Shown here piece after piece: positions 1 to 31,814 of a stretch of DNA of 32,165 nt. The notes beneath the pieces are model-generated. The model saw only the letters and a program-made list of their open reading frames with translations. It was not told the DNA's origin and did not search any database. Source of the DNA: Patescibacteria group bacterium (GTDB lineage: Bacteria; Patescibacteriota; Minisyncoccia; Phycocordibacterales; UBA918); assembly GCA_019745315.1 (NCBI GenBank), contig JAIETH010000014.1, positions 1 through 32,165 of the forward strand. The letters run 5' to 3'. Both the position numbers and the translations under genes were made by a program. Position 1 is the first letter of the stretch, and the number at the start of each line of letters is the position of its first letter.

Positions 1-103
1 TGGCCGTGATAGGTGTCATGTTTGGTTCGTGAGGCAAGAGACGTACAATAACGCCGAAGAGAATCAGAATGCATACGACATAGATGATATTTTTCTTGTT
101 CAT
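1..103 (-). CDS. N-terminus of DUF6580-like small membrane protein (partial)
   Basis: This gene runs off the left edge and is too short for the ORF track. From the ATG at 103 it reads MNKKNIIYVV..., a hydrophobic first helix, followed by LLPHEPNMTPITA. The PHxPNxTPI pattern after a first membrane helix is what I associate with the DUF6580 family of small integral membrane proteins, which resemble ECF-transporter substrate-binding subunits; that assignment is from memory and rests on only 34 residues. It starts just after the stop of the DUF4430 gene (ATG at 103, stop at 108), so it is very likely in the same transcript as the cobalamin genes upstream. I infer a role in cobalamin or precursor uptake from context only. 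Confidence 0.6.
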   Translation of the reverse strand, partial: MNKKNIIYVVCILILFGVIVRLLPHEPNMTPITA

Positions 104-107
104 ATGA

Positions 108-539
108 TTAAAACTCTGATTTACTAAAATACCATTCAATAGTATCTCCATTTTTAACTTCAAGCGTATCTGCTCCCACCTGGGGCATTGTCCCATTTAC
201 CTTGTATTGCCAATACTTATCATCCATTCCGTTTGTTTTATCGCCGATACTTTCGACCAGTGTTCCGAGTCCAGGGTAGTCTTTCGTCGTAAGTCGTACT
301 TCGTCGTCCTCTGTGTCAAGTTGCTGCAACACCTCCAGTACAGTCTTGGGAGAGATGAACTGGATATCTTTATCGATATAAAGCCCTTCGATTGTTACGG
401 TTGAAGTCTGTGTCTCCGATATTTTTTGTCTAGGCTCACTGGGTACATTATTTCGGTCTATGGTCGCAGAGATGCCAAAAAGCAAAATGATTGCGACAGC
501 TCCAACTCCTACTGTTTGCCAAATTGTATTTTTTCTCAT
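108..539 (-). CDS. Membrane-anchored DUF4430 (transcobalamin-like) protein
   Basis: With the ATG at 539 this is a 143-residue protein: a short basic N-terminus (MRKNTIW), one membrane segment (about residues 7-25), a polar linker, and a C-terminal domain of about 95 residues. The domain carries the pattern WQYKVNG...VGADTLEVKNGDTIEWYF, typical of DUF4430, the fold shared with the C-terminal domain of transcobalamin and intrinsic factor and used as a small extracytoplasmic domain in bacteria. The ORF track extends to 608, but that start overlaps the adenosyltransferase gene by about 60 bases; an ATG at 584 is a possible compromise. It lies directly behind a cob(I)alamin adenosyltransferase and a B12-dependent reductase, so cobalamin binding outside the membrane is a reasonable inference, not shown by sequence alone. 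Confidence 0.75.
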   Translation of the reverse strand: MRKNTIWQTVGVGAVAIILLFGISATIDRNNVPSEPRQKISETQTSTVTIEGLYIDKDIQFISPKTVLEVLQQLDTEDDEVRLTTKDYPGLGTLVESIGDKTNGMDDKYWQYKVNGTMPQVGADTLEVKNGDTIEWYFSKSEF

Positions 540-549
540 GATTCTGTTG

Positions 550-1086
550 TTACGAATAAGACGGCGATGCTTCTTTCCTATCATCTTCCGCCGCGACATA
601 GCGCGCAAGTGCGTACAAAAGACTCGAGAGACGGTTGAGGTAAGTAAGTGATTCGTCGGACACCCTTTGTTTCACACTTGGTGCAACGATTGAGCGTTCT
701 GCACGTCGAGCTACTGTCCGGGCATAGTCAAGAAAAGCTGATAACTTTGTTGCGCCCGGAATTACAAAAGCATGAGGATTCCCAATAAGAACCTCTACTT
801 TATTAATGACAGCTTCGATACCCTGCACTCGTGTTGTATCAATATGCTTGTTGGACCCAGCAAGTTCTGCTTGAACAATAAAGAGTGCTTCTTGTGCACT
901 ACGGATTTCATCCTGCAAAGATATGTCGCCGACTGTACCAGTAGCATACACTCTGCAGATACCTAAAAGGGAATTTAACTCGTCTAATGTACCAAGAGCT
1001 TCATACACGGGATGGTCCTTTGAGAACCGTTCTTTAGTACCAAAGAGTCCGGAAGTTCCACTGTCTCCTTTGCGAGTGTATAACAT
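550..1086 (-). CDS. PduO-type cob(I)alamin adenosyltransferase
   Basis: Converts cob(I)alamin plus ATP to adenosylcobalamin in the cytoplasm. The 178-residue length and motifs fit the PduO/MMAB family: N-terminal TRKGDSGTSGLFG (the ATP-binding KTGDxGTTxLxxG element), then YEALGTLDELNSLLG, and the C-terminal ARTVARRAERSIVA followed by LTYLNRLSSLLYALARY. The Arg-rich RRAER segment is part of the active site in this family. The start ATG is 6 bases after the stop of the ribonucleotide reductase gene, so the two are translationally close and probably co-transcribed. The cofactor it makes is exactly what the upstream enzyme needs. No biosynthetic cobalamin genes are visible, which points to salvage. 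Confidence 0.93.
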   Translation of the reverse strand: MLYTRKGDSGTSGLFGTKERFSKDHPVYEALGTLDELNSLLGICRVYATGTVGDISLQDEIRSAQEALFIVQAELAGSNKHIDTTRVQGIEAVINKVEVLIGNPHAFVIPGATKLSAFLDYARTVARRAERSIVAPSVKQRVSDESLTYLNRLSSLLYALARYVAAEDDRKEASPSYS

Positions 1087-1092
1087 ACTTAT

Positions 1093-3429
1093 TTAGCGTG
1101 TTACGGCCAGTTCGGATGCTTCGACAGACATGGTGTCATCAATCTCACAAGTCCCACCTGCACAAGCGAGCTCACGCTTCTGTTCAGTCTCATCAGCATG
1201 CTCGTATGCAAGCAATTTTGAATAATCAATGACGGGCAATTTTGTCATCATCTCATCATATTGTTTTTTAGTGATCGTCTCATACGGCGCGAGTTGATAG
1301 ACGTGGTCAAATCGGGGTAGAAATGAAAGTCCGCCGATGATGTCCCAATTTTTCTGCACCCAATCGACGACACTAATCCATTCGTCCTCTCCAACAGATA
1401 TCGTTGCAGATGGATTATGTTCTGTGTAGTTGAGTTTGATAAGCTTCCAGTATTCAAGCTGCTCGAGTGCGGAGAAATCATCTTTGAATTTTGCATTTCC
1501 TGGAGATTCGATCGGGAATTCTAGGACAAAAGTTGTTGCGTTCTCTATCGATTGTCCGACTTCAGGATGATACGGAACACCCTGATCTTTCATCATTTTG
1601 AACAGTGAATCGGTCGCTGATATGCGAACACGTCGAATGTAATATTTCGCGTGACGCGGATGAATACCCGATGAGCAGTTGAATGTCTGCGAAACGGTAC
1701 CTGAAGGCTTCACAGCGGTAACAGAGAGAGAAGGTTTAATTCCAAACCGCTTCGCGTACACCTCATTTGTTTTGACGGCCATATCACGCATTGCTTGCAT
1801 GGTTTTTGGATCACGTACTGTCGCGCAATCCCATTGCCCAGTAACAGACACTCCTAAAAGACGCTCTTCTTCACAATGCTTAGCCCAATCATTGGAGATG
1901 TAGTTAAACTTCGACAAAGAAGATTGATATGTACCAAGCAGTGACGCTAGTCGTGCCTTCCTTACTAAGTTTTCGTGTGAATCGTCGGCACGTGCAATAA
2001 CTTCCGAAAGATTACAAAATTGTTTCGACTGCAGAATGATCTCACCGCAGGGATTTGTACCGATAGGACCCTGTACTACGCCATCGTCACCAATGAATCC
2101 AACTTTCTTGAAGTATTTTTCACGACGTTTTGGTAAAGTGTTTGCCAGTGACCCTCGATTGAATATCCCTCGTTCACCAGAACCGCTTTTCATGAGTGCA
2201 ACCCATTCCTCCATAAGCTCGTTGCTAGTCGGTCTCATTCCATATACAGCTGAATTGTTAGCAACCGAGCGATGGGGTTCTGTAAGGAAAAATTGACCCT
2301 TTTTTGCGTCGCGCATGTCAACATCATCGAGATCAGATAGGCTGATCATGGCGGTCCGTCGCACACCTCCGGATACCACGCATTCACCAATTTTGCAGAT
2401 AATATCGTGAACATCGATCGGTCGCAGTCTTCTGCCTTGACGCTTAAGTATCTTTTCACGAGAAAATACCAGAAGTGATCGAAGTGGCTCCGGCCCAGAA
2501 GCTTTACCTCCCATCGTCTTCAATCGCGCACCTGCTGGACGAATATGTGAGAAGTCAAATTCAATATCCTTTCCTTCGTACCATGTTTTAAGTCCAAGTG
2601 TTAAGGCATCGCACCAACCTTCCTTTGAGTCCAAAACGATATGTTTTGAGACTTTCTTTGACGTCTGTTTTTGTATCTGCGGTAGCTGTTCAATGTTTTG
2701 ACTCTCAACGGCAAATCCAACACCACACCCTTGCATAGAGAGGTACATGATTTCCGCAAAATCCTCTAACGCGGTTGGTGCAATGAAGGTGCAGTTATAT
2801 GCGCAAGTGTTGCAGCGACGCGCTGGATCTCCCGCAAACTGCATAAGGCGCATCGAAGGCATGATTTCTTGTTTGAGGATCGCTTCCTGCACCTCTGCAT
2901 ACTCTTCCTCGGATAGTTTTTTACCGAGATTTTCACGCATGAAAGCGATATACCTATCGACAGTCTCAATCCAAGTCTCACGACGCTTCTCAACCTCAAT
3001 CCAACGAGCATATGTACGGAGATAAACGAATTCACCTAAAGGATTGCCTTCGAAATATTTCTTACTCTCAGATGATAGAGTGCGGACATGTTCGGGAATT
3101 TCTCCTATCTCAAATCGTTTCTCTGTTCGTTCTGCACGGTACAGGATGTATGCCTTGGCAGATTTAAGAAATCCCAACAACATTAGTCCTGTCTCCACTT
3201 CGTCTTGCACCCCCTCAACAGTGGGGATGAAGTGTTCGTCAGCAAGTTTTTTAGCCATGAGCCGCTTCTCAACTGCACGGGCAACCGTCTCTGCCGCATT
3301 TTCTTCAAATTCGCTAACGGATTTCATTGCTTTACTGATTGCGGTTACAATCTTTTCTCTTTGAAAAGGAGCCGTGGTACCGTTACGTTTCGTAATGATG
3401 GCAAGTTTTGAAGAAGTTGATTGTGACAT
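1093..3429 (-). CDS. nrdJ: Adenosylcobalamin-dependent (class II) ribonucleotide reductase with ATP-cone
   Basis: Reduces ribonucleotides to deoxyribonucleotides using a radical generated from adenosylcobalamin. Residues about 8-105 form an ATP-cone (ITKRNGTTAPFQREKI...), the allosteric activity site. The catalytic barrel follows, with RRCNTCAYNCTFIAP (about 204-217), the radical/catalytic motif NPCGEI (C461, E463) and FCNLSE (C472). The C-terminal CAGGTC (C756 and C761) is a Cys-x4-Cys shuttle pair that would re-reduce the active site. The 778-residue length and the lack of a separate R2-type subunit nearby fit a monomeric, RTPR-like class II enzyme. It is the first gene of the leftward cobalamin cluster; the start ATG lies about 30 bases from an inverted repeat shared with the divergent ArsR gene. 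No good Shine-Dalgarno is seen. Confidence 0.95.
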   Translation of the reverse strand: MSQSTSSKLAIITKRNGTTAPFQREKIVTAISKAMKSVSEFEENAAETVARAVEKRLMAKKLADEHFIPTVEGVQDEVETGLMLLGFLKSAKAYILYRAERTEKRFEIGEIPEHVRTLSSESKKYFEGNPLGEFVYLRTYARWIEVEKRRETWIETVDRYIAFMRENLGKKLSEEEYAEVQEAILKQEIMPSMRLMQFAGDPARRCNTCAYNCTFIAPTALEDFAEIMYLSMQGCGVGFAVESQNIEQLPQIQKQTSKKVSKHIVLDSKEGWCDALTLGLKTWYEGKDIEFDFSHIRPAGARLKTMGGKASGPEPLRSLLVFSREKILKRQGRRLRPIDVHDIICKIGECVVSGGVRRTAMISLSDLDDVDMRDAKKGQFFLTEPHRSVANNSAVYGMRPTSNELMEEWVALMKSGSGERGIFNRGSLANTLPKRREKYFKKVGFIGDDGVVQGPIGTNPCGEIILQSKQFCNLSEVIARADDSHENLVRKARLASLLGTYQSSLSKFNYISNDWAKHCEEERLLGVSVTGQWDCATVRDPKTMQAMRDMAVKTNEVYAKRFGIKPSLSVTAVKPSGTVSQTFNCSSGIHPRHAKYYIRRVRISATDSLFKMMKDQGVPYHPEVGQSIENATTFVLEFPIESPGNAKFKDDFSALEQLEYWKLIKLNYTEHNPSATISVGEDEWISVVDWVQKNWDIIGGLSFLPRFDHVYQLAPYETITKKQYDEMMTKLPVIDYSKLLAYEHADETEQKRELACAGGTCEIDDTMSVEASELAVTR

Positions 3430-3450
3430 ACAAGAGGATGCGTTATATTG

Positions 3451-3484
3451 ATAGTGGTCTATGCATTATAATATAGACGAGTAT
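3451..3484. promoter_or_regulatory. Inverted repeat overlapping the ArsR promoter; candidate shared operator
   Basis: Two 12-base arms (3451-3462 and 3473-3484) match as inverted repeats at 10 of 12 positions, with a perfect core GTCTAT...ATAGAC around a 10-base centre. A consensus TATAAT box (3467-3472) sits in the centre, 14 bases before the ArsR start codon. The repeat lies between the divergent regulator and reductase genes. ArsR-family repressors bind such 12-2-12-like or longer dyads over the -10 element, so this is a good candidate for autoregulation and for control of the cobalamin/RNR operon. A clear -35 is not seen. Confidence 0.6.
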
Positions 3485-3486
3485 CT

Positions 3487-3852
3487 ATGAATAAGAAATC
3501 ATTGGGGACAGAAGATAAGACGACAGAATCAGCTCACGGTAAAGAGAAAAAAACGTATCCACGACCCTCATGGGTCAAGAGTGGTGAAGAAGAGCTTTGT
3601 CCTGACTGCTTTAAGGTGGTAGGTGATCGTAGTCGTTATAACCTAGTCTGCATGCTAGGAAAGTCCAAAGAAGGCATAACTGTGGGTCAATTGACCAAAA
3701 TGGTTAAACTCACTCAACCAACAGTCACACATCATCTACAAGTCCTTAAGTCAGTGGACGCAGTCGAGATTGAACCGCGTGGTCGAGAACGAGTATATAG
3801 ACTTAATCGGGACGCACATTGTTTTGAGGAGTGCCAGATTCCATATCAGTAA
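3487..3852 (+). CDS. ArsR-family winged-helix regulator
   Basis: A 121-residue DNA-binding protein. Residues about 40-108 fit the ArsR/SmtB winged helix: CFKVVGDRSRYNLVCML (first helices), ITVGQLTKMVKLTQPTVTHHLQVLK (recognition helix with THHLQVLK), then the wing VEIEPRGRERVYRL. Unusual cysteines stand out: CPDC at 38-41, C55, and HCFEEC near the C-terminus (C112, C116, with H111). Such paired cysteines could bind a metal (zinc, iron or cobalt) or sense redox state; the ligand is unknown. The gene is divergent from the B12-dependent reductase and shares a 57-base spacer containing a dyad, so it probably controls the reductase operon and itself. The first 25 residues are polar and probably disordered. 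Confidence 0.85.
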   Translation: MNKKSLGTEDKTTESAHGKEKKTYPRPSWVKSGEEELCPDCFKVVGDRSRYNLVCMLGKSKEGITVGQLTKMVKLTQPTVTHHLQVLKSVDAVEIEPRGRERVYRLNRDAHCFEECQIPYQ

Positions 3853-14003: not shown

Positions 14004-14299
14004 CGCGAGCGATGGGACTTGAACCCACGGCCTCTTCCGTGCACGTTATCCGCTATTTTCATAACGGCATGGACTATATCTTTACCATAAGTCTTTCGAC
14101 TCGTAGGTACCCCGGTATCTAGTCTCTACGGCGCCCTCATGCTATGTGTTTTTGTACATGAGGTTCCCTCGGTATTCGCATATCTTAGACCTAACTAAGA
14201 CGTAGCCTTCACCGATATCCCGGAAAGTTTCAATCTCCCTTTCGAAGAGAAAGCTGCATGTCTACAGGGAAGCGCTCTAACCAGCTGAGCTACGCCCGC
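14004..14299 (-). tRNA. tRNA-Asp (GUC) interrupted by a group I intron
   Basis: The 5' exon (14264-14299) and 3' exon (14004-14041) join to a 74-nt tRNA. The acceptor is GCGGGCG/CGCTCGC, the D-stem GCTC/GAGC, the anticodon arm CTTCC-CTGTCAC-GGAAG with anticodon GTC, the T-loop TTCAAGT and the discriminator G. G73 and GUC are aspartate identity elements. The intron splits the anticodon between U35 and C36. This choice of splice sites is supported by the 5' exon ending in U, by the intron ending in G, and by a P1 helix CUGU/GCAG with the U-G pair at the splice site. CCA is not encoded. The 5' end overlaps the stop codon of the LAGLIDADG gene by 10 bases. The tRNA cannot function without splicing. 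Confidence 0.9.
14042..14263 (-). ncRNA. Group I self-splicing intron, 222 nt
   Basis: The intron lies inside tRNA-Asp on the minus strand. P1 is CUGU/GCAG. The catalytic P7 is GACTA (R segment) with TAGTC in AAGATATAGTCC, a hallmark S-segment of group I introns. P8 is capped by AGTC-GAAA-GACT. Hairpins TCTTAG/CTAAGA and CCTCATG/CATGAGG fit the P5-P6 region. The terminal P9 is CGTTAT/ATAACG, followed by the final G. The intron has no ORF of its own. Small introns of this size in bacterial tRNAs usually belong to subgroup IC3; I cannot fix the subgroup by eye. Confidence 0.9.
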
Positions 14300-14961
14300 A
14301 ACTTTCGACTTTTTACAAACCCTTCAAAGACTCGCCTTTTGCGCTCTAAGAGGAGGTTGCAGGGCACATTATACATAATTTTGTAAAGTTTCATAGAGTC
14401 GAGAGTTGAAAAATTAAGGCGCCCATAATTATCATTTTTAACCCTATAAAGACCCCCTCCGCGCATACCATGAGCCTGGAGTTGTTCACGTAACGAAAAT
14501 AAAAAAGCTGATGAGCTACTGGTAAATGCTACATAGAGAACCTTAGTAGGAGTTTTTCTCTTTTTATTGATATATCCCTGCCAAACATTCCCGTCCCCAT
14601 CGAAGTATCCGCGCACAAAAGAACCAAAGTGCTTGGGTGGGATTATTGGCAGCTCCATGCGTGTGGCTTTATTCGGATGCAAACCGTAGCGCTGTATATC
14701 ATCAAACCACTCTCTACTGCCAATCTGAATACGGTACACAGAACCAGTTTCTGATTTTATTTCAGAAATCATATGATTTGATTTTATTACAGATCGGATA
14801 CTTAAGAGAAGTGCTTTGTCTTTTGTGTAAAGCGCAATGAAGTGAGTGCCACGCTTTGTAAGAGTAATATTCCCATCCGCAAATAAAAAACCAAGCACGT
14901 ACGCCATATCATCTGACCATTTTTTAAAGAAATCTTTATTGTAGTCTTTGTATATAGGCAT
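14290..14961 (-). CDS. LAGLIDADG homing endonuclease overlapping the tRNA-Asp 5' end
   Basis: A 223-residue protein (ATG at 14961; the track starts at an upstream GTG) with two LAGLIDADG motifs, AYVLGFLFADGN and FVRGYFDGDGN, about 90 residues apart. It is thus a single-chain enzyme that would cut a long asymmetric DNA site, or act as an intron maturase. The gene is not inside the intron; it lies directly 5' of the tRNA, and its last codons (TTG CGG GCG TAG) run into the tRNA, so the stop is the conserved TAG of the tRNA 5' strand. A TATAAT box ends only 6 bases before the ATG, so its mRNA may be leaderless and continue into the tRNA. Confidence 0.9.
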   Translation of the reverse strand: MPIYKDYNKDFFKKWSDDMAYVLGFLFADGNITLTKRGTHFIALYTKDKALLLSIRSVIKSNHMISEIKSETGSVYRIQIGSREWFDDIQRYGLHPNKATRMELPIIPPKHFGSFVRGYFDGDGNVWQGYINKKRKTPTKVLYVAFTSSSSAFLFSLREQLQAHGMRGGGLYRVKNDNYGRLNFSTLDSMKLYKIMYNVPCNLLLERKRRVFEGFVKSRKLRA

Positions 14962-14962
14962 G

Positions 14963-14979
14963 ACAGTATTATACACTGT
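14963..14979 (-). promoter_or_regulatory. -10 box within a small dyad upstream of the endonuclease gene
   Basis: TATAAT (14968-14973 on the minus strand) sits between the arms ACAGT and ACTGT. Its distance from the ATG at 14961 would put the transcript start at or near the start codon. The dyad could be an operator. No good -35 is seen. The transcript would also cover tRNA-Asp. Confidence 0.45.
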
Positions 14980-15090: not shown

Positions 15091-15163
15091 TGTCGAGGGT
15101 GGGGCTCGAACCCACGACCCCAGGCTTATGAGTCCTGTGCTCTACCAGCTGAGCTACCCCGAC
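15091..15163 (-). tRNA. tRNA with CAU anticodon (elongator Met, or Ile2)
   Basis: A 73-nt cloverleaf: acceptor GTCGGGG/CCTCGAC (one G-U), D-arm GCTC/GAGC, anticodon arm CAGGA-CTCATAA-GCCTG with an A-G mismatch next to the loop, T-loop TTCGAGC, discriminator A. The 1-72 pair is a normal G-C, so it is not the initiator. CAU could be read as Met, or as Ile2 if C34 is converted to lysidine by TilS; sequence alone does not decide. CCA is not encoded. Confidence 0.9.
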
Positions 15164-22929: not shown

Positions 22930-23397
22930 TTAATACTCTATTTTAATAGCACGCTCAACTGCTCGAGCATCAGATTGACCACTTATGCCACGATTAAAAC
23001 CACTTGCCCGCACGACTGTTGATTGACAATTTACACCACAGTTAACTTTTGTAATGCTCACATTTGCCGAAAGCTGCGGATTAGACCCCCACTCGATTGA
23101 AAAAGTATGCGAGCCACCGCTTATTGACGAAGTAATAGTAGAACCAGCAACGCAATAAATAGTTGCAGGAGCTAACGCGGCGAAGGCATTAGCAACCTTA
23201 TCCCAATACAAAGCACACTCAGCAAGAGCATCTGATGCATAGAACGCCACCTCTGCATCACGAGCTACATTTGCAAACAAAAAACCTTTCAGCGTTAGAT
23301 TTAATATTGAAACACCAATAGCAAGAACAAGGCTTGTGGTAATAACGGCGACAAGTAGCGTGAAGCCTTTTTGTAATTTTTGTTTAAATTGAACCAT
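22930..23397 (-). CDS. Minor pilin-like protein, PilX-type
   Basis: A 155-residue prepilin. The N-terminus KQKLQKGFTLLVAVITTSLVLAIGVSILNLTL has the prepilin peptidase site (KG/FTLL) and membrane helix. Instead of Glu at mature position 5 it has Leu, as in PilX/GspK-like minor pilins, which form the tip of the pilus. AEVAFYASDALAECALYW is common in this type. Cysteines are present in the C-terminal part (NCGVNCQS). It is the last gene of the pilus operon and is followed 6 bases later by ligA. Confidence 0.8.
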   Translation of the reverse strand: MVQFKQKLQKGFTLLVAVITTSLVLAIGVSILNLTLKGFLFANVARDAEVAFYASDALAECALYWDKVANAFAALAPATIYCVAGSTITSSISGGSHTFSIEWGSNPQLSANVSITKVNCGVNCQSTVVRASGFNRGISGQSDARAVERAIKIEY

Positions 23398-23406
23398 AAG
23401 TAGTCA

Positions 23407-24006
23407 CTATCGATAATGGTCAAAAAGTCTTTCTTGGATAGTTATTTGTTTTCTACCAGAGAACAAATTTGCTTGCCAACTCACGCGAGCAGTAACCACA
23501 ATTTCACGATCATTCGGACTTGAGTAATCATAAATAAAGAGCTTGCGTGTATAAGGAGAGAGCGCACCACCGCTCACGGCATTATTAAAGTATGACCCAT
23601 TAACACTGGCAGCGGTCGCAGAATCATACTTAAGTCGACATCCTCCCCCATCGGTGCCGCAATCAAAAAAAGTTTTTGCTCGAGTGTCTATGCCACATCC
23701 ATGATCATCTGCTACAGTAAAGAGCTCTTTGCATATCGTAGGAACACCATTTACATCCGTAGAAGCATTATACCAGCCAAAACTACTTCCTGAGTTTGCG
23801 AGCGCATACTGATCGCGCTTCATACGAACAAGCTCGATTGCTTCTTGCGCAAGGAAAACTGCCACCATCTCGTCTTTTGAGTAATAGGCAGTTTGAAGAC
23901 CTCGTGCAGCAATTGTCATTGGACCAGCTATCGCAGTAACAAGAATAGTAATGGCGATCAGTGTCTCCATTAATGTAAATCCTTTTTGTAGAGAAATAGT
24001 ACGCAT
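23407..24006 (-). CDS. Minor pilin-like protein, PilV/GspI-type
   Basis: A 199-residue prepilin: MRTISLQKGFTLMETLIAITILVTAIAGPMTIAARGL, with the KG/FTLxE cleavage motif and Glu at mature position 5, then a PilV-like helix ending LAQEAIELVRMKRDQ. The C-terminal part is beta-rich with several cysteines. It is 2 bases behind the PulJ-type gene. It is a likely member of the minor pilin tip complex. Confidence 0.85.
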   Translation of the reverse strand: MRTISLQKGFTLMETLIAITILVTAIAGPMTIAARGLQTAYYSKDEMVAVFLAQEAIELVRMKRDQYALANSGSSFGWYNASTDVNGVPTICKELFTVADDHGCGIDTRAKTFFDCGTDGGGCRLKYDSATAASVNGSYFNNAVSGGALSPYTRKLFIYDYSSPNDREIVVTARVSWQANLFSGRKQITIQERLFDHYR

Positions 24007-24008
24007 AA

Positions 24009-24590
24009 CTAATTGATCGTATCAAGAACTCGCTGAGTTGCAGTGGTTTGCACATTGAAACTCCCCAGCGTGCTTGCTTTGCTAGAAGTACCTGCAGCGC
24101 CTTCTAGTATAACTGTAACGATAGGCTGGAAAGCATCATTTACAGTTGTACCAGTTACAAAAAAGCGTAATTTTTCAATGCGAGCCTCAGGAGCAGTTAT
24201 ACGCTCCCAGCTAGATCCATCAACACTGCGTAGCACTGCCTGTAGCGTAGCGTCATATTTATACCCGATTCGATCGGTACCGTCTGAGTTGGTAAACTCA
24301 ATTCCGTCGCCCCCTCCCGAGCAATCTGGACCAACTTCTGTGTTAGCAGAATTAACAGAGGAGGCAGAGGCAGGACATGAGTAGTTGTACCCCGTACGAA
24401 TTGACCGAGTCATGGTATCCATAGCAAACGCAACGTTATCAGTAACAACTCTGAGAGCTTGCACTTTCCTATTTGCATCCACAAGCGTCAATAAAGAACC
24501 GATACTTATCATCATCACAATAGAAAAAAGAGCAACTGAAACAAGGAGCTCAACCAATGTAAAACCTTTTTTAGATATATCTTTCTGCAT
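24009..24590 (-). CDS. Minor pilin-like protein, PilW/GspJ-type
   Basis: A 193-residue prepilin: MQKDISKKGFTLVELLVSVALFSIVMMISIGSLLTL. Cleavage motif KG/FTLVE, then a helix typical of PilW/PulJ proteins (VDANRKVQALRVVTDNVAFAMDTMTRSIRTG). The C-terminal globular domain ends ATQRVLDTIN. It is 9 bases behind the GspH-type gene. Confidence 0.85.
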   Translation of the reverse strand: MQKDISKKGFTLVELLVSVALFSIVMMISIGSLLTLVDANRKVQALRVVTDNVAFAMDTMTRSIRTGYNYSCPASASSVNSANTEVGPDCSGGGDGIEFTNSDGTDRIGYKYDATLQAVLRSVDGSSWERITAPEARIEKLRFFVTGTTVNDAFQPIVTVILEGAAGTSSKASTLGSFNVQTTATQRVLDTIN

Positions 24591-24599
24591 GAATACTTA

Positions 24600-25241
24600 T
24601 TATGGCACGGACACCTGACCTGTATTGGTTATACGTACAGTACGTTCAATAGTATTGCGTGCATTAATGAGTGTAATTTCAACCTCCGATACAGTACCCA
24701 CAGGGGAAGGCAATGTTCCCGTTCGTGCAAAGAATGCATCCGGATTCGGTCGCACAAACATTATATCAAGCGTACTTATCCAACACTCATTTGTGGCAAA
24801 TGCGCCACCACTATCGCGATCCCCTGCACACAGCCCTCCTTTTCCAGCAGACAATGGAGACGGCAGTGGTTTTATAGAATTGCCTCGAGTCATAGTGAAC
24901 GTATTTACCGCCTCTCCTGCATCATATGTGAGGTCGTCATTCGCATCACGAAATATAATATATTGCGTAGGAGCTGCGTGAGTAAAATGAACACCATACG
25001 CAAACGTATTGGCACCTACTTTAGTATCCTGTGCAGTAATACCTCGCTGCTGTGCATCGCGTATAGAGAGCGCTACTTCAAAAGCAAGGTTTTTGAGGAG
25101 GAGTTGCCCATCAAATCTTGCATATTGAAAAATAATAACTCCTGAGATAGTTGTGATTATAAAAATAGACACCATGAGCTCAATCAGCGTGAAGCCCCGT
25201 GAGCTATTTTTTGAATGTACTTTTTTTTTCAAAAATGACAT
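24600..25241 (-). CDS. Minor pilin-like protein, FimT/GspH-type
   Basis: From the ATG at 25241 the protein is 213 residues: MSFLKKKVHSKNSSRGFTLIELMVSIFIITTISGVIIFQYARFDGQLLLKNLAFEVALSIRDAQQRG, with a consensus RG/FTLIE site and the FimT/GspH pattern of the second helix (ALSIRDAQQRGI). The ORF track start at 25340 would overlap pilD and puts a second hydrophobic stretch before the prepilin signal, so I reject it. The start is 7 bases after the pilD stop codon. Confidence 0.85.
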   Translation of the reverse strand: MSFLKKKVHSKNSSRGFTLIELMVSIFIITTISGVIIFQYARFDGQLLLKNLAFEVALSIRDAQQRGITAQDTKVGANTFAYGVHFTHAAPTQYIIFRDANDDLTYDAGEAVNTFTMTRGNSIKPLPSPLSAGKGGLCAGDRDSGGAFATNECWISTLDIMFVRPNPDAFFARTGTLPSPVGTVSEVEITLINARNTIERTVRITNTGQVSVP

Positions 25242-25248
25242 GAAGTTA

Positions 25249-26121
25249 TTAAAAAGAAAGCATGACATCAAAAACAGAAATCCCCAGAAAATGCGCCACA
25301 CAAAAACCTGCGAGAAGAAAAGGTGCAAACGGTATCTCACTTTTCATTGTAAGCCCCATGCGCGCGCAATGAAAGCGTTTTCGTAGAGCTTCTGTGGAGC
25401 GTACGATACGTGACTGATAAGGTAAAGATTCTATATAGGTACGAATACGCTTTATTACCCACGCTAAACATACCAGTGAAACACTTATTCCAGCACCTAT
25501 CCAGAATGAAAAAACAACCATAGAGACTGATGCCGGCCATGAAGCAATTATCCCGAGAGGGAGTGCGAGTTTGGCGTCTCCTAGCCCGATCCATCTTCCT
25601 TGAGAAACAAGCCAAAGAACATAAAAGAACAGAGAAGCTGAGGCGCCACCCAGCACCCTCAGTAAAAGCTCATATGTATCTGGCGCATACAAATAATGAA
25701 TGCCAGAAATTAACGCGGCGCATACACTAAAAGCAATAACAAACTCGTCGGGAATAATAGTATGAAGGACGTCATATACGCTAATAAGAACAAATATAAT
25801 CGCAAGACACAGATAGAGAGCACGTAGAAGCGGATCTTGTATCACATACGCAACAAACCCAAAAAGTGCACCCGTAAGAACCTCAACCATGAGGTATCGC
25901 GGAGAAATGTGAGCACTGCAATAGCGACACCGTCCACGGAGCGCCATATACGACACAACAGGAAACAAACACTTCCACGAAAGAGTGTGCCCGCACGACA
26001 TACAGTGCGACCTTCCCTCGAGAGACTTTCCTGTATGAAACCGATAGATTACTACGTTAAGAAAACTACCAACAATGAGTCCGAGAAGTACGTACCAGAT
26101 TACAACTATATGTTCGAGCAT
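25249..26121 (-). CDS. pilD: Prepilin leader peptidase
   Basis: A membrane aspartic protease that cuts the KG/FTL leader of the prepilins. The 290 residues begin with GLIVGSFLNVVIYR, followed by a four-cysteine cytoplasmic region (CMSC...CRYC) where the N-methylation domain lies. About eight membrane helices follow with the catalytic aspartates in IIPDEFVI and GLGDAKLALPLG. It is flanked by the twin pilins upstream and four minor pilins downstream. Confidence 0.93.
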   Translation of the reverse strand: MLEHIVVIWYVLLGLIVGSFLNVVIYRFHTGKSLEGRSHCMSCGHTLSWKCLFPVVSYMALRGRCRYCSAHISPRYLMVEVLTGALFGFVAYVIQDPLLRALYLCLAIIFVLISVYDVLHTIIPDEFVIAFSVCAALISGIHYLYAPDTYELLLRVLGGASASLFFYVLWLVSQGRWIGLGDAKLALPLGIIASWPASVSMVVFSFWIGAGISVSLVCLAWVIKRIRTYIESLPYQSRIVRSTEALRKRFHCARMGLTMKSEIPFAPFLLAGFCVAHFLGISVFDVMLSF

Positions 26122-26177
26122 TACTATTCATTATACAACCCAAGCCTTCTACGCCACATGAAAAATTCTCACATCAC

Positions 26178-26594
26178 TTAACCACAGACGTAGTCAGAGC
26201 CATCAGATATTGAAGATGCCGCAGTCGTTGTCGCTACGCCGGTACTGTCTACACAGTAAAAATCTGTTGATCCCTTAAGTTGGCCTTCGAGCGCCCACGC
26301 ATCCACATCATCCGCACATGTTGCGGAAAGACTTCCCGCAACCAGAACAGCTGCCTGTAAATCTATGATTTTTTGATCAGCACAGAGACTGGTATACGCA
26401 TTACCGTTATCATCATAAAACAACGCTGCTTGAGCACGAGAATTATATATATTCGACTTAATCGCAGCATCAGCTCCTTTTGTACGAGCGGTGTTGAGAG
26501 ACGCCAATACAACTGATGCGAGAATACCGATAATTGCGATCACCACAAGAAGTTCGATAAGGGTGAAACCTCTTGTTTTATTTTTTATTGTCAT
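26178..26594 (-). CDS. Major type IV pilin-like protein, copy 2
   Basis: From the ATG at 26594 the protein is 138 residues. MTIKNKTRGFTLIELLVVIAIIGILASVVLASLNTARTKGADAAIKSN is the signal, cleavage site (RG/FTLIE) and N-terminal alpha helix. The C-terminal globular domain has several cysteines and the motif FYCVDSTGV. The first 40 mature residues are identical to those of copy 1 upstream, at the protein and nearly the DNA level. The ORF-track start at 26615 adds seven residues. Structural subunit of the pilus, membrane before assembly. Confidence 0.92.
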   Translation of the reverse strand: MTIKNKTRGFTLIELLVVIAIIGILASVVLASLNTARTKGADAAIKSNIYNSRAQAALFYDDNGNAYTSLCADQKIIDLQAAVLVAGSLSATCADDVDAWALEGQLKGSTDFYCVDSTGVATTTAASSISDGSDYVCG

Positions 26595-26640
26595 AGTATC
26601 TATATGATACATCATATTTATTTTTAAAAAGTACTCAGAG

Positions 26641-26679
26641 GTTTACAAAAACCTCCTTTTTCGGGAGGTTTTTGTAAAC
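26641..26679. terminator. Bidirectional terminator between twin pilins
   Basis: Two perfect 16-base arms (26641-26656 and 26664-26679) with core CCTCC/GGAGG and A/T-runs on both sides. It lies 19 bases after the stop of pilin copy 1. Copy 2 therefore needs either read-through or a promoter in the short gap. Confidence 0.85.
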
Positions 26680-26697
26680 GATACAAACAAGTATCTA

Positions 26698-27159
26698 TTA
26701 CGGACAAACAATAGCGTTAGCGGCAAGAGTTGTAGAAGCACCCCTAGAAACACCAGTACTATCTACGCACCAATACCCAGAACCACTTGTCTTAAGAGGG
26801 GCCGCAATTGCCCATGCCGCTCCTGTTGTAGCAGTTACGTGACAAATAACAGTCGTTGCTGTTCCAGCAGTACCGATAGCGCTCACTACAGAGGTTGCAT
26901 CAGAAGAGCTCACTACTGATGCCAATGCAGCTGCGACCGTACTGTTAGTACAAAGGTTCAGGTAGTTGCCCTGTGTATCATAAATAATCTCAGCCTGAGC
27001 TCTGATATTTGCAAGGTTCGACTTAATCGCAGCATCAGCGCCCTTCGTACGAGCAGTGTTGAGAGACGCCAACACAACAGATGCGAGGATACCGATAATT
27101 GCGATCACCACAAGGAGTTCGATAAGGGTGAAGCCTCTTGTTCTATTATAAATATTCAT
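26698..27159 (-). CDS. Major type IV pilin-like protein, copy 1
   Basis: 153 residues: MNIYNRTRGFTLIELLVVIAIIGILASVVLASLNTARTKGADAAIKSNLANIRAQAEIIYD. RG/FTLIE cleavage site, then the helix of a major pilin. The C-terminal domain has YWCVDSTGVSRGAS and a final cysteine, like copy 2, but is otherwise different. It has two TATAAT boxes in its 124-base upstream region and a strong terminator after it, consistent with high separate expression as the main pilin. Confidence 0.93.
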   Translation of the reverse strand: MNIYNRTRGFTLIELLVVIAIIGILASVVLASLNTARTKGADAAIKSNLANIRAQAEIIYDTQGNYLNLCTNSTVAAALASVVSSSDATSVVSAIGTAGTATTVICHVTATTGAAWAIAAPLKTSGSGYWCVDSTGVSRGASTTLAANAIVCP

Positions 27160-27192
27160 ACTGAATTGTTATTAAAAACTCTTTTTTAGTTA

Positions 27193-27230
27193 ATTATAGA
27201 CCACGAGTTTTAATGGCTCACATCATTATA
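27193..27230 (-). promoter_or_regulatory. Two -10 boxes upstream of pilin copy 1
   Basis: In the 124-base gap between pilC and the pilin, the minus strand has two perfect TATAAT boxes (27193-27198 and 27225-27230). -35 elements are weak. There is no sigma-54 (GG-N10-GC) site that I can see. The pilin probably has its own transcript. Confidence 0.5.
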
Positions 27231-27283
27231 CTCCTTTCTTGACCCACAAAAGATATGCTTGGGGAAAAGCCCTACAAAAAGAG

Positions 27284-28492
27284 CTATATCCCTGTTGCTA
27301 TGTTGTAAATAGGCATCATGATCGCAGCCAACAGAGTTCCTACACCGAGTCCAAGCATCACGATCATGGCCGGCTCAATCATATTGATAAGCGTATCTAC
27401 CGCATTATTTACCTCGCGCTGATAGAACTTTGCAACAGTGGTAAGAATCGCTGAGAGACTACCTGTCTCCTCTCCCACCTTCATCATCTGTGACATTACT
27501 CCTGGAATCTCTGGAAAGTTGCCGAGCACATCTGAAACAGCTCGCCCCGCCTTCACACCAACAATCGTTTCTTCAATAATTTCTCGATATACACGATGTT
27601 CCACCAATTCAGAAGTTATTTCGAGTGTTTGCACCATCGAAAGACCAGCAGAGAGCAAGGTTGAAAGACCATCAGCGATACGTGAGAGATAGAGTCTCTG
27701 ATAGAGAGTACCTACATAGGGAATTCCGAGCTTTAACTCATCGAGTGCACGTGCGCCAATTTCAGTCTTAGTAAAGCGCCATACGCCGACACCAGCAAAA
27801 GCCACAAAAATCAGGATGAGTACTATGTATTTTGTAAGGAATGCTGAAGCGGCCATCACAACAGATGTAAATACAGGAACCTCCTGCCCGGACTGGAGAA
27901 TGATGTCGCTCAAGCGCGGAACAACCAAGGTCATCATGAGTGTCATCACAGTCACAAAAGTAGCGATAACAAACGCTGGGTAGATCAACGCATTTCGTGT
28001 CTTCGACATCACTTCATACGAACGATCGAGATAGTCAGCGAGCTGTGTAAAGATACTATCGAGACGTCCTGACTCTTCTCCGGCACGAACCATATTCACG
28101 TAAAACGATGAGAATGTATCCGGATGCCGAGCAAGCGCCTTTGCAATAGTACTTCCTCCTTGAATATCGTCTCCTATTTCAGTGAGGATTCTTCTAAGTA
28201 ATGGATTTTCTGTTTCAGAAGCCAGCAACCTAAAGATTCGAAGAGCAGATACCTGCGCTTCGAAAAGTGTTGCTATTTGTCGAGAAAAAATAACAATCTC
28301 TTTATGAGATACGTGTTCAAGAAACGTGAGCTGAATACCAAACAGTGAACTTTTCTCAAGTGCTGGATCTATTGCCGCAACGGTATACCCACGTCTCTGG
28401 AGAGAGTTTATTGCGGAATCAATATTGGAAGCATCAATCACACCCTCCCATTTGGTACCTTTTTGGTCAAACGCTTTATAGTCAAAAAGCAT
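27284..28492 (-). CDS. pilC: Type IV pilus inner-membrane platform protein
   Basis: A 402-residue T2SF/PilC protein that anchors the pilus motor. The N-terminal cytoplasmic segment is DYKAFDQKGTKWEGVIDASNIDSAINSLQRRGY. Two homologous GspF domains follow (about 60-190 and 265-395), each with an FYVNMVRAGEESGRLD / MSQMMKVGEETGSLS motif and membrane helices (about 165-185, 215-235, 370-395). The start is 5 bases after the pilT stop. Confidence 0.95.
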   Translation of the reverse strand: MLFDYKAFDQKGTKWEGVIDASNIDSAINSLQRRGYTVAAIDPALEKSSLFGIQLTFLEHVSHKEIVIFSRQIATLFEAQVSALRIFRLLASETENPLLRRILTEIGDDIQGGSTIAKALARHPDTFSSFYVNMVRAGEESGRLDSIFTQLADYLDRSYEVMSKTRNALIYPAFVIATFVTVMTLMMTLVVPRLSDIILQSGQEVPVFTSVVMAASAFLTKYIVLILIFVAFAGVGVWRFTKTEIGARALDELKLGIPYVGTLYQRLYLSRIADGLSTLLSAGLSMVQTLEITSELVEHRVYREIIEETIVGVKAGRAVSDVLGNFPEIPGVMSQMMKVGEETGSLSAILTTVAKFYQREVNNAVDTLINMIEPAMIVMLGLGVGTLLAAIMMPIYNIATGI

Positions 28493-28497
28493 ATAGT

Positions 28498-29568
28498 TTA
28501 TAGAAGACGCTTAAGTCCTTTCGGATTAGTTGAATACGCAAATGCGTTCTCAATAGAAATTTCACCTCGATGAACAAGCTCTGAGATAGAGCGATTCATT
28601 TCGATCATGCCGTGCTCGGTTCCTGTTTCAATAACAGTGTTGAGTTCATGTGTTCTGCGCTCACGTATAAGGTTTGCAACAGCATTGTTATTTATCAAAA
28701 GTTCATATGTTGGAACGAGACCTCCTGCAATTCGTGGAATAAGACGCTGAGAGAAAACTCCGAGGAGAGATCCAGCGAGCTGAACACGAATCTGATCTTG
28801 CTGTCCACCTGGGAACGAGTCAATAATACGATCAATTGTCTGCGCAGCGGTGTTGGTGTGGAGCGTTGAAAGCACGAGATGTCCTGTTTCGGCTGCAGTT
28901 ACCGCAGTACTTATGGTCTCAGCGCTCCGCATCTCACCAACCATGATAACGTCAACGTCCTGGCGAAACGCTGAGTGAAGCGCAGTATGGAAGTCAGCAG
29001 TATCGACACGAACTTCACGCTGATCAATCAATGATCTCTTTGGCTCGTAGATATATTCAATAGGATCTTCAATGGTAACAATATGAGCCGCTTGAGTTGT
29101 ATTAATGAGATCAATCATCGCAGCAAGAGTGGTTGACTTACCCTGCCCCACAGGACCCACACAAAGAAAGAATCCTTGAGGACGCGCTGCAAATGTTTCA
29201 AGAATCGGCGGAAGATTAAGTTCTTTAAATGTACGAATAGCGTTTTGAATATGACGCAATGCAATAGAGATGCCTCCTCGTTGAAAAAATCCATTGCCAC
29301 GAAAACGCACGCCATTTTTATATGCATATGAAAAGTCTACTTCTTTCGCTTTCAAAAAAGCCTCAGCTTGCTCTTTAGTCAAAAGAGCTTTCGCAAAACC
29401 AAGGGCGTCATCTGCATCGAGAATAGGCTTCTTAAGAAGTGGAATCAGTGAGCCTGACACACGAATCATTGGATGTGATCCAACAGAGAGGTGTATATCA
29501 GAACCTCCCTCACCCACAACGATGTCTATAAGCTCTTCAAGCTCCCCCTTATAATCAATAGATGCCAT
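28498..29568 (-). CDS. pilT: Pilus retraction ATPase PilT
   Basis: 356 residues, hexameric ATPase driving pilus retraction. Walker A GPVGQGKSTTLAAMID, Asp box TIEDPIEYIY, Walker B DVDVIMVGEMRSAETI and the His box TGHLVLSTLHTNTAAQTIDRIID are all present. The short N-terminal PAS-like domain (SDIHLSVGSHPMIRVSG) and the PilT-like AGGLVPTYELLINNNAVANLIRE tail separate it from PilB. The Walker A loop (GPVGQGKST) differs from the usual GPTGSGKST. It lies between pilC and the CheY-like gene. Confidence 0.95.
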   Translation of the reverse strand: MASIDYKGELEELIDIVVGEGGSDIHLSVGSHPMIRVSGSLIPLLKKPILDADDALGFAKALLTKEQAEAFLKAKEVDFSYAYKNGVRFRGNGFFQRGGISIALRHIQNAIRTFKELNLPPILETFAARPQGFFLCVGPVGQGKSTTLAAMIDLINTTQAAHIVTIEDPIEYIYEPKRSLIDQREVRVDTADFHTALHSAFRQDVDVIMVGEMRSAETISTAVTAAETGHLVLSTLHTNTAAQTIDRIIDSFPGGQQDQIRVQLAGSLLGVFSQRLIPRIAGGLVPTYELLINNNAVANLIRERRTHELNTVIETGTEHGMIEMNRSISELVHRGEISIENAFAYSTNPKGLKRLL

Positions 29569-29574
29569 ATTATT

Positions 29575-29964
29575 TTATTTTACTGCATTCGCCTTTTTCT
29601 CTGCGTACTCTTTTACCGAACGCACAACTTCGCTCGGTATAGAATTTGCTTTGATAATGTACCCATCAGCCCCTGCTTCATTCGCAGCCTCGATATCTGT
29701 TCGCTCTCCTTGATTCGAGAGAACAATACACAAAGGATCCCCTCCGAGAGATTCAGCTCTTATTGCCTTAAGGAGATCGAGTCCTGTCAGGTGCGGCATG
29801 ATCATATCGAGCAAAATGATATCAAACGAAGTTCCGCTTCGGAGCTTTTTAAGTGCTTCTTCAACGCTTTTTGCCGTATCAACCGTATACGCATTCTCAC
29901 CAAACTTGAGAGCATACATATCAAGCAAGAAAGAATCGTCATCAACTATCAGGATGGTACTCAT
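29575..29964 (-). CDS. CheY-like single-domain response regulator
   Basis: 129 residues, one receiver domain and no output domain. The acidic pocket D8-D10, the phosphoacceptor D53 (IILLDMIMP), S83 in place of the usual Thr/Ser, and K105 (GYIIKANS) are all present. It lies between pilB and pilT, 6 bases before pilT. This suggests that a kinase signal tunes the pilus motor, much as PilG/PilH do in twitching bacteria. No histidine kinase is in the window. Confidence 0.92.
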   Translation of the reverse strand: MSTILIVDDDSFLLDMYALKFGENAYTVDTAKSVEEALKKLRSGTSFDIILLDMIMPHLTGLDLLKAIRAESLGGDPLCIVLSNQGERTDIEAANEAGADGYIIKANSIPSEVVRSVKEYAEKKANAVK

Positions 29965-30012
29965 GCATCTATTATACGCTGCTTACACAAATAAAATCCG
30001 CGTTATCGACAG

Positions 30013-31791
30013 CTACTTTGCGACAGCCTCTGCAGCAATCGTTTCATCTTGATCAAGCTCAATAAGCATTCCTCCCAGAGCATTGACCTCTTCAAACGGT
30101 ATCTCTCGTTTCATTGCTTTAATAATGGCATCTTCGCGCATAGACATAAACCCATTCTTTCGTGCGCTCTGGAAAAGATCATCCTCCCCCGCACCCTTGA
30201 GAATCAGGTTTTCTAGTTCATCATTCACATTGATTACCTCCATAACGACCGTACGACCTCGCGTTCCATTGGGGCATGCTGCACTTGGTTCTGCTCGCAA
30301 CACACTTTGTACGTTTGGAATACGAGTTTTAAGAGCAGGAGCAAGTCCGGCGAACTCTTTTTCGATCATAAGCTGAAGAGATCCTTTTATAGGAACCTCT
30401 TTTCCAGAATCAGGGCAAATCTTTCGCACTAAACGTTGCGCCATTGCAAGTATGAGCGTAGGAGCTATGAGGTATGGGTCAACACCCATGTCTATCAAGC
30501 GAGGAATTACACCCACAGCACTGTTGGTGTGGATGGTCGAAAGCACTAAGTGACCGGTAAGCGCTGCCTGAATAGCGAGCTGCGCTGTTTCTTTATCACG
30601 AATTTCTCCCACCATGATTACGTCAGGGTCCTGACGGAGGACGGTACGGAGTCCACTCGCAAACGTATAGCCAATCTCTGGTCGTATTTGAGACTGACTT
30701 ACTCCGTCGATCTTATATTCAACCGGATCCTCTAGAGAAATAACGTTTTTCCCAAGGCGATCAACTTCACTCAACATCGCATAGAGAGTTGTTGATTTTC
30801 CTGAACCAGTTGGTCCTGAAATAAGAATAATTCCGTGCGGTTGCCGCACCGCCTCTTGTATCATTGGAACATAATAATCAGAAATACCGATACTTAAGAG
30901 AGAGCGCACAGTACTATCAGGATCCAAGATACGCATCACAATCTTCTCTCCGTAATAGGTAGGCAGCGACGAAACACGAAAATCGATACGTCGTCCATCG
31001 ATAGTTGCCGAAAATCGTCCGTCTTGTGGTTTACGTTTTTCATCGAGCCTCAGAGAAGCGAGTATTTTTACACGAGCCGCAATTGCTGTATGAATCTTGA
31101 TAGGCAGCTCAATTGAGGTAGCAAGAACCCCGTCGACACGAAATCGTACACGAACCTTTTCTTCCGTAGGTTCAATATGTATGTCAGAGGCATGACCATC
31201 AACCGCATAACGAAGTATGGTTGCCACAATACGTGTAACCGGGGCGTCTTCCTTTATAACAGTTTCCTTTTCTACCTCTGTTTCAGCAGCTTCTTTTTTA
31301 CGGTCTTCGATATCGCTCGTCAACTCGCTCTCCAAATCAGTCAATGCTTCGTCCACCTCACCTGTTAGATTTTCATAACCTGCCAAAACCTTCTCGAAAT
31401 CTTCCTGCAGGATAATAACAAGCTTGTACGGTATATTATTTTTTGAGGAAATGAAATTTAATGCATCTGTTGCCTGAAGATTATCTGGATCGGTAATGCC
31501 CACCTCAAGAACTCCATCTTTTTCTTCGAGAGGAACAAATCTATAATGACGCGCCGATTCTTCAGGAATATATCGCAACGCGTCTGAAGCAATTTTTTCT
31601 TGTGGAGCAATGCGACGTGTAGGCAAGCGATAGTACTCGCCCATGTTCTGTAAAAGCACATCGGGATCAACCCCTCGGGCCAGCAAGCCTGCTTCAATCG
31701 AAACCCCTCCTCCTTCAGATTCAGTTAAAATTTCCGTAGCAGCCTGCTCACTTAAAATCCCCTTTTTTTTGAGTAGATCAAGAATGTACAT
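30013..31791 (-). CDS. pilB: Pilus assembly ATPase PilB
   Basis: 592 residues from the ATG at 31791, which has AGAGG 6 bases upstream; the track start at 31797 is a TTG. The N-terminal MshEN/T2SSE_N domain is followed by the ATPase: Walker A GPTGSGKSTTLYAML, Asp box SLEDPVEYKID, Walker B DPDVIMVGEIRDKETA and the His box TGHLVLSTIHTNSAVGVIPRLIDMG. A C-terminal zinc-binding four-cysteine loop is expected in PilB/GspE; here only two single cysteines remain (RKICPDSGKE and AACPNGTRGRT). It drives pilus extension. Confidence 0.95.
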   Translation of the reverse strand: MYILDLLKKKGILSEQAATEILTESEGGGVSIEAGLLARGVDPDVLLQNMGEYYRLPTRRIAPQEKIASDALRYIPEESARHYRFVPLEEKDGVLEVGITDPDNLQATDALNFISSKNNIPYKLVIILQEDFEKVLAGYENLTGEVDEALTDLESELTSDIEDRKKEAAETEVEKETVIKEDAPVTRIVATILRYAVDGHASDIHIEPTEEKVRVRFRVDGVLATSIELPIKIHTAIAARVKILASLRLDEKRKPQDGRFSATIDGRRIDFRVSSLPTYYGEKIVMRILDPDSTVRSLLSIGISDYYVPMIQEAVRQPHGIILISGPTGSGKSTTLYAMLSEVDRLGKNVISLEDPVEYKIDGVSQSQIRPEIGYTFASGLRTVLRQDPDVIMVGEIRDKETAQLAIQAALTGHLVLSTIHTNSAVGVIPRLIDMGVDPYLIAPTLILAMAQRLVRKICPDSGKEVPIKGSLQLMIEKEFAGLAPALKTRIPNVQSVLRAEPSAACPNGTRGRTVVMEVINVNDELENLILKGAGEDDLFQSARKNGFMSMREDAIIKAMKREIPFEEVNALGGMLIELDQDETIAAEAVAK

Positions 31792-31814
31792 ACACAACCT
31801 CTGTAATTAAGCTC

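Follow-up and report, generated by a model that had tools for sequence, protein, structure and literature searches.

A probable cobalamin salvage-and-use operon of Patescibacteria pairs a transcobalamin-like protein with DUF6580, a putative solitary S-component

The proteobacterial protein BtuM supported growth as a solitary S-component; btuM lies beside btuR, and trapping of the vitamin by adenosylation was proposed (PMC6072759). ECF-CbrT, the structure of which is 6FNP, is a demonstrated B12 transporter (PMC5997447). Bacterial transcobalamin-like proteins, i.e. those with a DUF4430 domain, were proposed as B12 scavengers with CbiO/CbiQ neighbours (Burroughs et al. 2007, PMC1796856). These SLBB (DUF4430) proteins stand alone or are fused to an alpha/alpha toroid, an operon often encodes two paralogues, and fusions of ArsR with SLBB were noted as well (PMC1796856). 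DUF4430 is also contained in the animal transcobalamins (PMC4350170). Patescibacteria are mostly uncultured and rely on others for cofactors. One study counts cobalamin among the pathways that most MAGs of Patescibacteria do not lack (PMC8672522), a statement that may reflect the annotation of adenosyltransferases. A full-text search of the literature gave no paper naming DUF6580, and no paper on B12 uptake in CPR bacteria was found.

The window analysed here, a stretch of 32,165 nucleotides, has its position 1 at the very start of contig C5, in a genome of 771 kb and 15 contigs. Four genes are transcribed from its minus strand in the order class II ribonucleotide reductase (RNR), PduO-type adenosyltransferase, DUF4430 protein and start of DUF6580, with intergenic gaps of 6, 10 and 4 nt (Table 1). 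The ArsR gene is divergent from this run, not co-directional with it. This locus is very probably a cobalamin salvage-and-use operon. That DUF6580 represents a phylum-wide class of B12 importer, i.e. a solitary CbrT-like S-component that receives B12 from an anchored transcobalamin-like protein and is driven by adenosylation inside the cell, is a broader proposal that we hold with moderate confidence. Besides the window's genome, the analysis covered 117 closer relatives, 333 genomes drawn across the phylum and a context set of 80 loci, the organism titles of which are nearly all Patescibacteria.

Table 1. Position and assignment of the features of the locus in the window
Feature	Position	Strand	Assignment or basis
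DUF6580 membrane protein, 34 codons to contig end	2..103	-	proposed solitary CbrT-like B12 S-component
DUF4430 protein, N-terminal anchor helix and transcobalamin-like beta-grasp domain	108..539	-	proposed surface B12 binder
PduO-type ATP:cob(I)alamin adenosyltransferase	550..1086	-	PF01923, TIGR00636
Class II (adenosylcobalamin-dependent) RNR, RTPR-like, with N-terminal ATP cone	1093..3429	-	Pfam, NCBIfam and PDB matches, cysteine motifs
Palindrome GTCTAT-N10-ATAGAC in the RNR/arsR divergent promoter	3457..3478	.	candidate ArsR operator
ArsR/SmtB-family regulator, N-terminal CPDC and C-terminal CFEEC cysteine pairs	3487..3852	+	NF033788

Elsewhere in the window, reading by eye showed a free-standing LAGLIDADG-type homing endonuclease-like ORF (14290-14976) near a tRNA gene (15091-15163), and a type IV pilus cluster (22930-31797) with pilin-like proteins, a prepilin peptidase and PilC-, PilT- and PilB-like proteins.

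The B12-dependent RNR and the PduO-type adenosyltransferase of the original prediction were both confirmed by Pfam, NCBIfam and PDB matches. The RNR (778 aa) matches the Pfam ATP-cone (E=1.2e-17), RNR_Alpha (1.7e-12) and, above the cut-off, the class II insertion domain PF21995 (E=1.4e-6). In the PDB it is closest to 1L1L, an adenosylcobalamin RNR (E=3.5e-48), and the cysteine motifs NPCGEI, QFCNLSE and a C-terminal CAGGTC are read directly in its translation. The match to NCBIfam RTPR has an E of 1.4e-93, but its 314 bits lie below the equivalog cut-off of 340. Judged by its sequence, the window RNR is a class II enzyme of the RTPR type. The adenosyltransferase matches PF01923 (E=3e-43), PduO_Nterm (TIGR00636; 141.7 bits for a cut-off of 108.45) and adenosyltransferases of the PDB (E down to 4e-26). 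No class III RNR was found in eight genomes, i.e. that of the window and those of seven relatives bearing DUF6580.

The DUF4430 protein, with a probable start ATG at 539 and a stop at 108, has 143 aa and one N-terminal helix. That it is an anchored transcobalamin-like protein is borne out by its match to PF14478 (E=1.2e-16, 61.4 bits, cut-off 23.8) and by fold matches to B12 carriers. A profile of nine relatives found in the PDB transcobalamin-1, transcobalamin-2 and intrinsic factor, besides two marginal histones (E 0.7-0.8). With a profile of 50 rows the same carriers were best, the bacterial DUF4430 structure 3U7Z was added (2.5e-4), and three other PDB rows were marginal (E 0.27-0.29). In the AF2 model built on the 50 rows (pLDDT 87) a beta-grasp domain follows an N-terminal helix. 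When this model was submitted to Foldseek, all 19 PDB matches at E<=0.001 were intrinsic factor, haptocorrin, transcobalamin or 3U7Z. Among them is 5NP4, which contains the beta domain of transcobalamin alone together with cyanocobalamin; for the beta domain of transcobalamin 5NO0 the E is 7e-6 and the TM 0.78 on the target. We infer that the window's DUF4430 is a homologue of the beta domain of the B12 carriers, and propose that it binds B12.

A second protein accompanies DUF4430 in four relatives (G071, G080, G113 and G116) and is present in 48 of the 80 loci. It is a squalene-cyclase-type alpha/alpha toroid with weak similarity to PF01122 and PF14478. This alpha-domain protein is absent from the window's genome, from G024 and from G096. 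Where it occurs (e.g. L068, L070, L071, L119 and L140) it is anchored, mostly 500-980 aa long and encoded upstream of the pair of DUF4430 and DUF6580. With a DUF4430-like domain followed by the toroid, it resembles a transcobalamin of two domains in which their order is inverted. The match to PF01122, "Eukaryotic cobalamin-binding protein", is weak, reaching 1.4e-4 (G080).

Only 34 codons (103-2) of DUF6580 precede the contig end, and they encode MNKKNIIYVVCILILFGVIVRLLPHEPNMTPITA. The remainder of the gene was not found on the other contigs of the genome. This fragment, being 34 aa only, matches Pfam PF20221 with E=0.018 and 15.7 bits, under the cut-off of 27. The assignment as a DUF6580-like membrane protein is nevertheless supported: the fragment matches a profile of the relatives with E=3e-10, and the residues that seven relatives all share here (R21, H25, N28, T30, P31 and A34) are present in it without exception. 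Full-length DUF6580 proteins of relatives from the same taxonomic order score 131-152 bits.

At E<=10 the sole sequence match of DUF6580 in the PDB is 6FNP_A, i.e. CbrT, with E=1.9e-4 from 7 sequences and 9.5e-5 from 74. This match is modest and spans some two thirds of the protein. In the same database BtuM was not matched by sequence. We modelled the full-length protein of a relative (L063, 175 aa) with AF2, which gave 7 helices and a pLDDT of 92.7. The best Foldseek matches of this model are ECF S-components, with a probability of up to 1.00 and a TM of 0.63, but with E 0.3-1. The top rows are thiamin, riboflavin, pantothenate and other S-components, CbrT and BtuM not being among the matches listed. 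The model of this relative's DUF6580 thus predicts the fold of an S-component (about 180 aa, 6 TM helices).

The original prediction had looked to the neighbouring DNA for genes of an ECF ATPase. Such a partner is no longer to be expected, since EcfT (PF02361) is absent from the window's genome and, above the cut-off, from the 117 relatives; as a positive control, the same model found it in 10 of 14 control genomes. No FecCD/BtuC-type permease was found in the genomes that carry the pair, and weak matches occur in 15 relatives (G054, G091, G008 and 12 others). These are ORFs of 266-308 aa, five of them above the Pfam cut-off, and possibly belong to another family of ABC permeases. Because pair-carrying genomes have neither EcfT nor a BtuC-type permease, DUF6580 probably acts as a solitary S-component, with no ECF module. 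It might instead need an energising module encoded elsewhere and too divergent for PF02361. Most characterised S-components do need a module, except BtuM and some BioY. CbrT alone also failed in E. coli (PMC5997447). But we consider a divergent module unlikely, given the results with PF02361 in the relatives and the controls, and because the 80 loci showed no recurrent ABC or EcfT-like gene family.

The original prediction called for a survey of CPR genomes, and the co-occurrence of the two domains is confirmed by it. DUF6580 is present in 91 of the 333 genomes (27%), DUF4430 in 88 and both in 83. Thus 83 of the 91 genomes with DUF6580 also have DUF4430 (Fisher p=3.5e-62, shared ancestry being ignored). 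The two lie on one contig in 71 genomes and within 3.5 kb in 68; in 67 DUF4430 is upstream of DUF6580 within this distance and on the same strand. Among the 117 closer relatives seven carry DUF6580, and all seven genomes have DUF4430, class II RNR and adenosyltransferase. The latter two enzymes occur together in 42 of 116 relatives, which gives p=6e-4 for seven out of seven, again ignoring shared ancestry. As 35 of these 42 have RNR and adenosyltransferase without the pair, another route for B12 must exist. Four genomes of the window's own family (G002, G016, G018 and G020) have class II RNR and adenosyltransferase and neither DUF4430 nor DUF6580.

At the level of the locus, DUF4430 is found in 70 of the 80 loci, most of the other 10 ending at a contig edge. 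A class II RNR is present in 19, BtuR in 15 and PduO in 1. In the available sequence most of the pairs are without the neighbours that the original prediction had relied upon, the very outcome that it had named as its refutation: an RNR or an adenosyltransferase is present in only 24 loci; 9 further loci have a B12 riboswitch. For the remaining 47, many of which end at a contig edge, the available sequence contains neither of these genes and no riboswitch. Genes for another nutrient do not recur beside the pair among the 80 loci. G024 is the only close relative with the window's gene order. A divergent RNR lies beside the pair in G080, G096 and G113, and in the last two BtuR, which is unrelated to PduO, stands next to the RNR. 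An NrdJ-type enzyme takes the place of the RTPR-type class II RNR in Woykebacterial and other loci. That the adenosyltransferase and the type of RNR are replaced while the pair stays constant suggests that it is the cofactor which links them. We read the pair as a module for B12 in general, not as one dedicated to the RNR.

We scanned 65 of the 80 loci with the covariance models RF00174, RF01482 and RF01689, retaining hits at or above the gathering score. A cobalamin aptamer is present in 16 of them, whereas practically none is expected by chance. All 16 share the strand of DUF6580 and precede the first gene for DUF4430 or the toroid, mostly by 9-210 nt (507 nt in L119); two overlap the mechanically extended start of an ORF. 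In L085, L102, L104, L119, L121, L126 and L134 the RNR or adenosyltransferase genes come first, and the aptamer follows them or separates the RNR from the uptake genes. From this position, B12 would be expected to shut off uptake and not the reductase. G024 and the window gave no cobalamin riboswitch, for the window not even when the threshold was relaxed.

These data bear on two other readings of the locus. One holds that the adjacency of the four genes is fortuitous, and that DUF4430 and DUF6580 are unrelated to RNR or B12. The 47 loci without RNR, adenosyltransferase or riboswitch speak for it, but the repetition of the gene order in G024, the divergent RNRs next to the pair in three other relatives, the 19 loci with an RNR and the 16 with a riboswitch speak against it. 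This reading, which the riboswitches and the homologies already contradict, is hardly credible. The other holds that the pair imports a related corrinoid or a precursor (cobinamide, other cobamides) and not intact B12, with some remodelling in the cell. The riboswitches and the carrier homology indeed point to corrinoids and not to B12 itself, and CbrT also carries cobinamide (PMC5997447). But PduO and RNR require a complete cobamide, and genes for remodelling were not seen beside the pair; we regard this reading as less likely. The proposal that DUF4430 and DUF6580 form a B12 capture and uptake pair is supported by the homology to carriers and the similarity to CbrT, and further by the linkage across the phylum, the upstream riboswitches and the exchange of adenosyltransferase and RNR types.

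The ArsR-type control that had been attributed to the locus received some support. The regulator matches the NCBIfam model NF033788 for metalloregulators of the ArsR/SmtB family (58 bits, cut-off 55), and the same gene is divergent from RNR-PduO in G016, of the same family (L153 8310-8516, E=2e-20, incomplete there). As G016 has neither DUF4430 nor DUF6580, the regulator belongs with RNR-PduO. The palindrome of the divergent promoter is not significant in the window alone, 14% of shuffles holding one as good. It carries weight because it recurs: of six occurrences of TCTAT-N10-ATAGA in the 1.54 Mb examined, three stand upstream of the class II RNR, in the window, G016 and G024, all of one family. 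It is a candidate operator for ArsR on these sequence grounds.

Other observations concern the surroundings of this promoter in the two relatives. G024 (L051 13014-13110) keeps the palindrome at the RNR promoter while the ArsR gene is absent; a short remnant, ATCTATG.ATAAGAAA, resembles the start of the ArsR gene. A Fur-like regulator gene lies 1.3 kb beyond the RNR (L051 14292-14645, by eye). Downstream of RNR-PduO in G016 (L153 3390-5251) lie genes that by eye resemble those of an NRAMP-type metal transporter and of a regulator of the DtxR/MntR type.

An ArsR/SmtB regulator with two cysteine pairs next to the run could suggest that the pair serves cobalt or another metal, not corrinoids. Cobalt importers can be among the riboswitch-controlled genes, and the annotation of a DUF4430 structure from Ruminococcus reads "putative metal binding". 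But this is very unlikely because DUF4430 matches the B12 carriers, which sandwich the whole corrinoid, because DUF6580 matches CbrT and not CbiM, and because in G016 the ArsR gene travels with RNR-PduO in the absence of the pair.

We thus favour the following scheme for B12. At the cell surface, the anchored DUF4430 would bind B12 or a related corrinoid in the manner of the transcobalamin beta domain, as its fold and sequence homology suggest. It would hand the vitamin to DUF6580, a putative solitary S-component of six to seven helices according to its similarity to CbrT, its predicted fold and the absence of EcfT from the genomes searched. PduO, the enzyme family of which is established by its matches, would activate the imported corrinoid by turning it into adenosylcobalamin, and this adenosylation probably also traps the cofactor inside, as proposed for BtuM-BtuR. 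With adenosylcobalamin the class II RNR, its family likewise established, would make deoxynucleotides. In the window's family the run is probably under an ArsR-type repressor that acts at the palindrome of the RNR promoter; in many other lineages the cobalamin riboswitches that the covariance models detected upstream of the uptake genes would do the regulator's job.

The B12-scavenger role of DUF4430, which the original prediction put forward as part of a new capture and uptake system, had already been proposed in 2007 (PMC1796856), and only the DUF6580 half is new: DUF6580 as the transport partner of DUF4430, and the motor-less arrangement. A function is thereby proposed for a family found in 27% of the sampled genomes of the phylum, which helps to predict B12 dependence from sequence. 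A relative of the animal B12-carrier domain beside a motor-less transporter also offers a simple system for hand-over and trapping.

Compared with the known systems, the locus shares parts with each. The beta domain of animal transcobalamin, intrinsic factor and haptocorrin is homologous to DUF4430, and some relatives also have the toroid protein with its weak PF01122 match, whereas the window's genome has the beta domain only. With the SLBB proteins of Burroughs et al. 2007 the window shares a secreted or anchored DUF4430 and the proposed scavenging of B12 (PMC1796856), but those operons contain CbiO/CbiQ (ECF) and are mainly from low-GC Gram-positives, while the present ones are from Patescibacteria and combine DUF4430 with DUF6580, without EcfT. 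CbrT of Lactobacillus delbrueckii (PMC5997447, 6FNP) is an S-component of about 180 residues, as is proposed for DUF6580. It is specific for B12 and works with EcfA/A'/T, giving no growth alone (PMC5997447), in contrast to the EcfT-less genomes that carry the pair. BtuM of proteobacteria (PMC6072759) would resemble DUF6580 by its B12-type S-component fold and its work without an ECF module, and its gene context, with an adjoining adenosyltransferase gene, fits that of the window. It has a cysteine ligand to cobalt (PMC6072759), whereas no cysteine is invariant or nearly so in DUF6580. Relative to BtuM, the Patescibacteria system has in addition a proposed DUF4430 binder at the surface.
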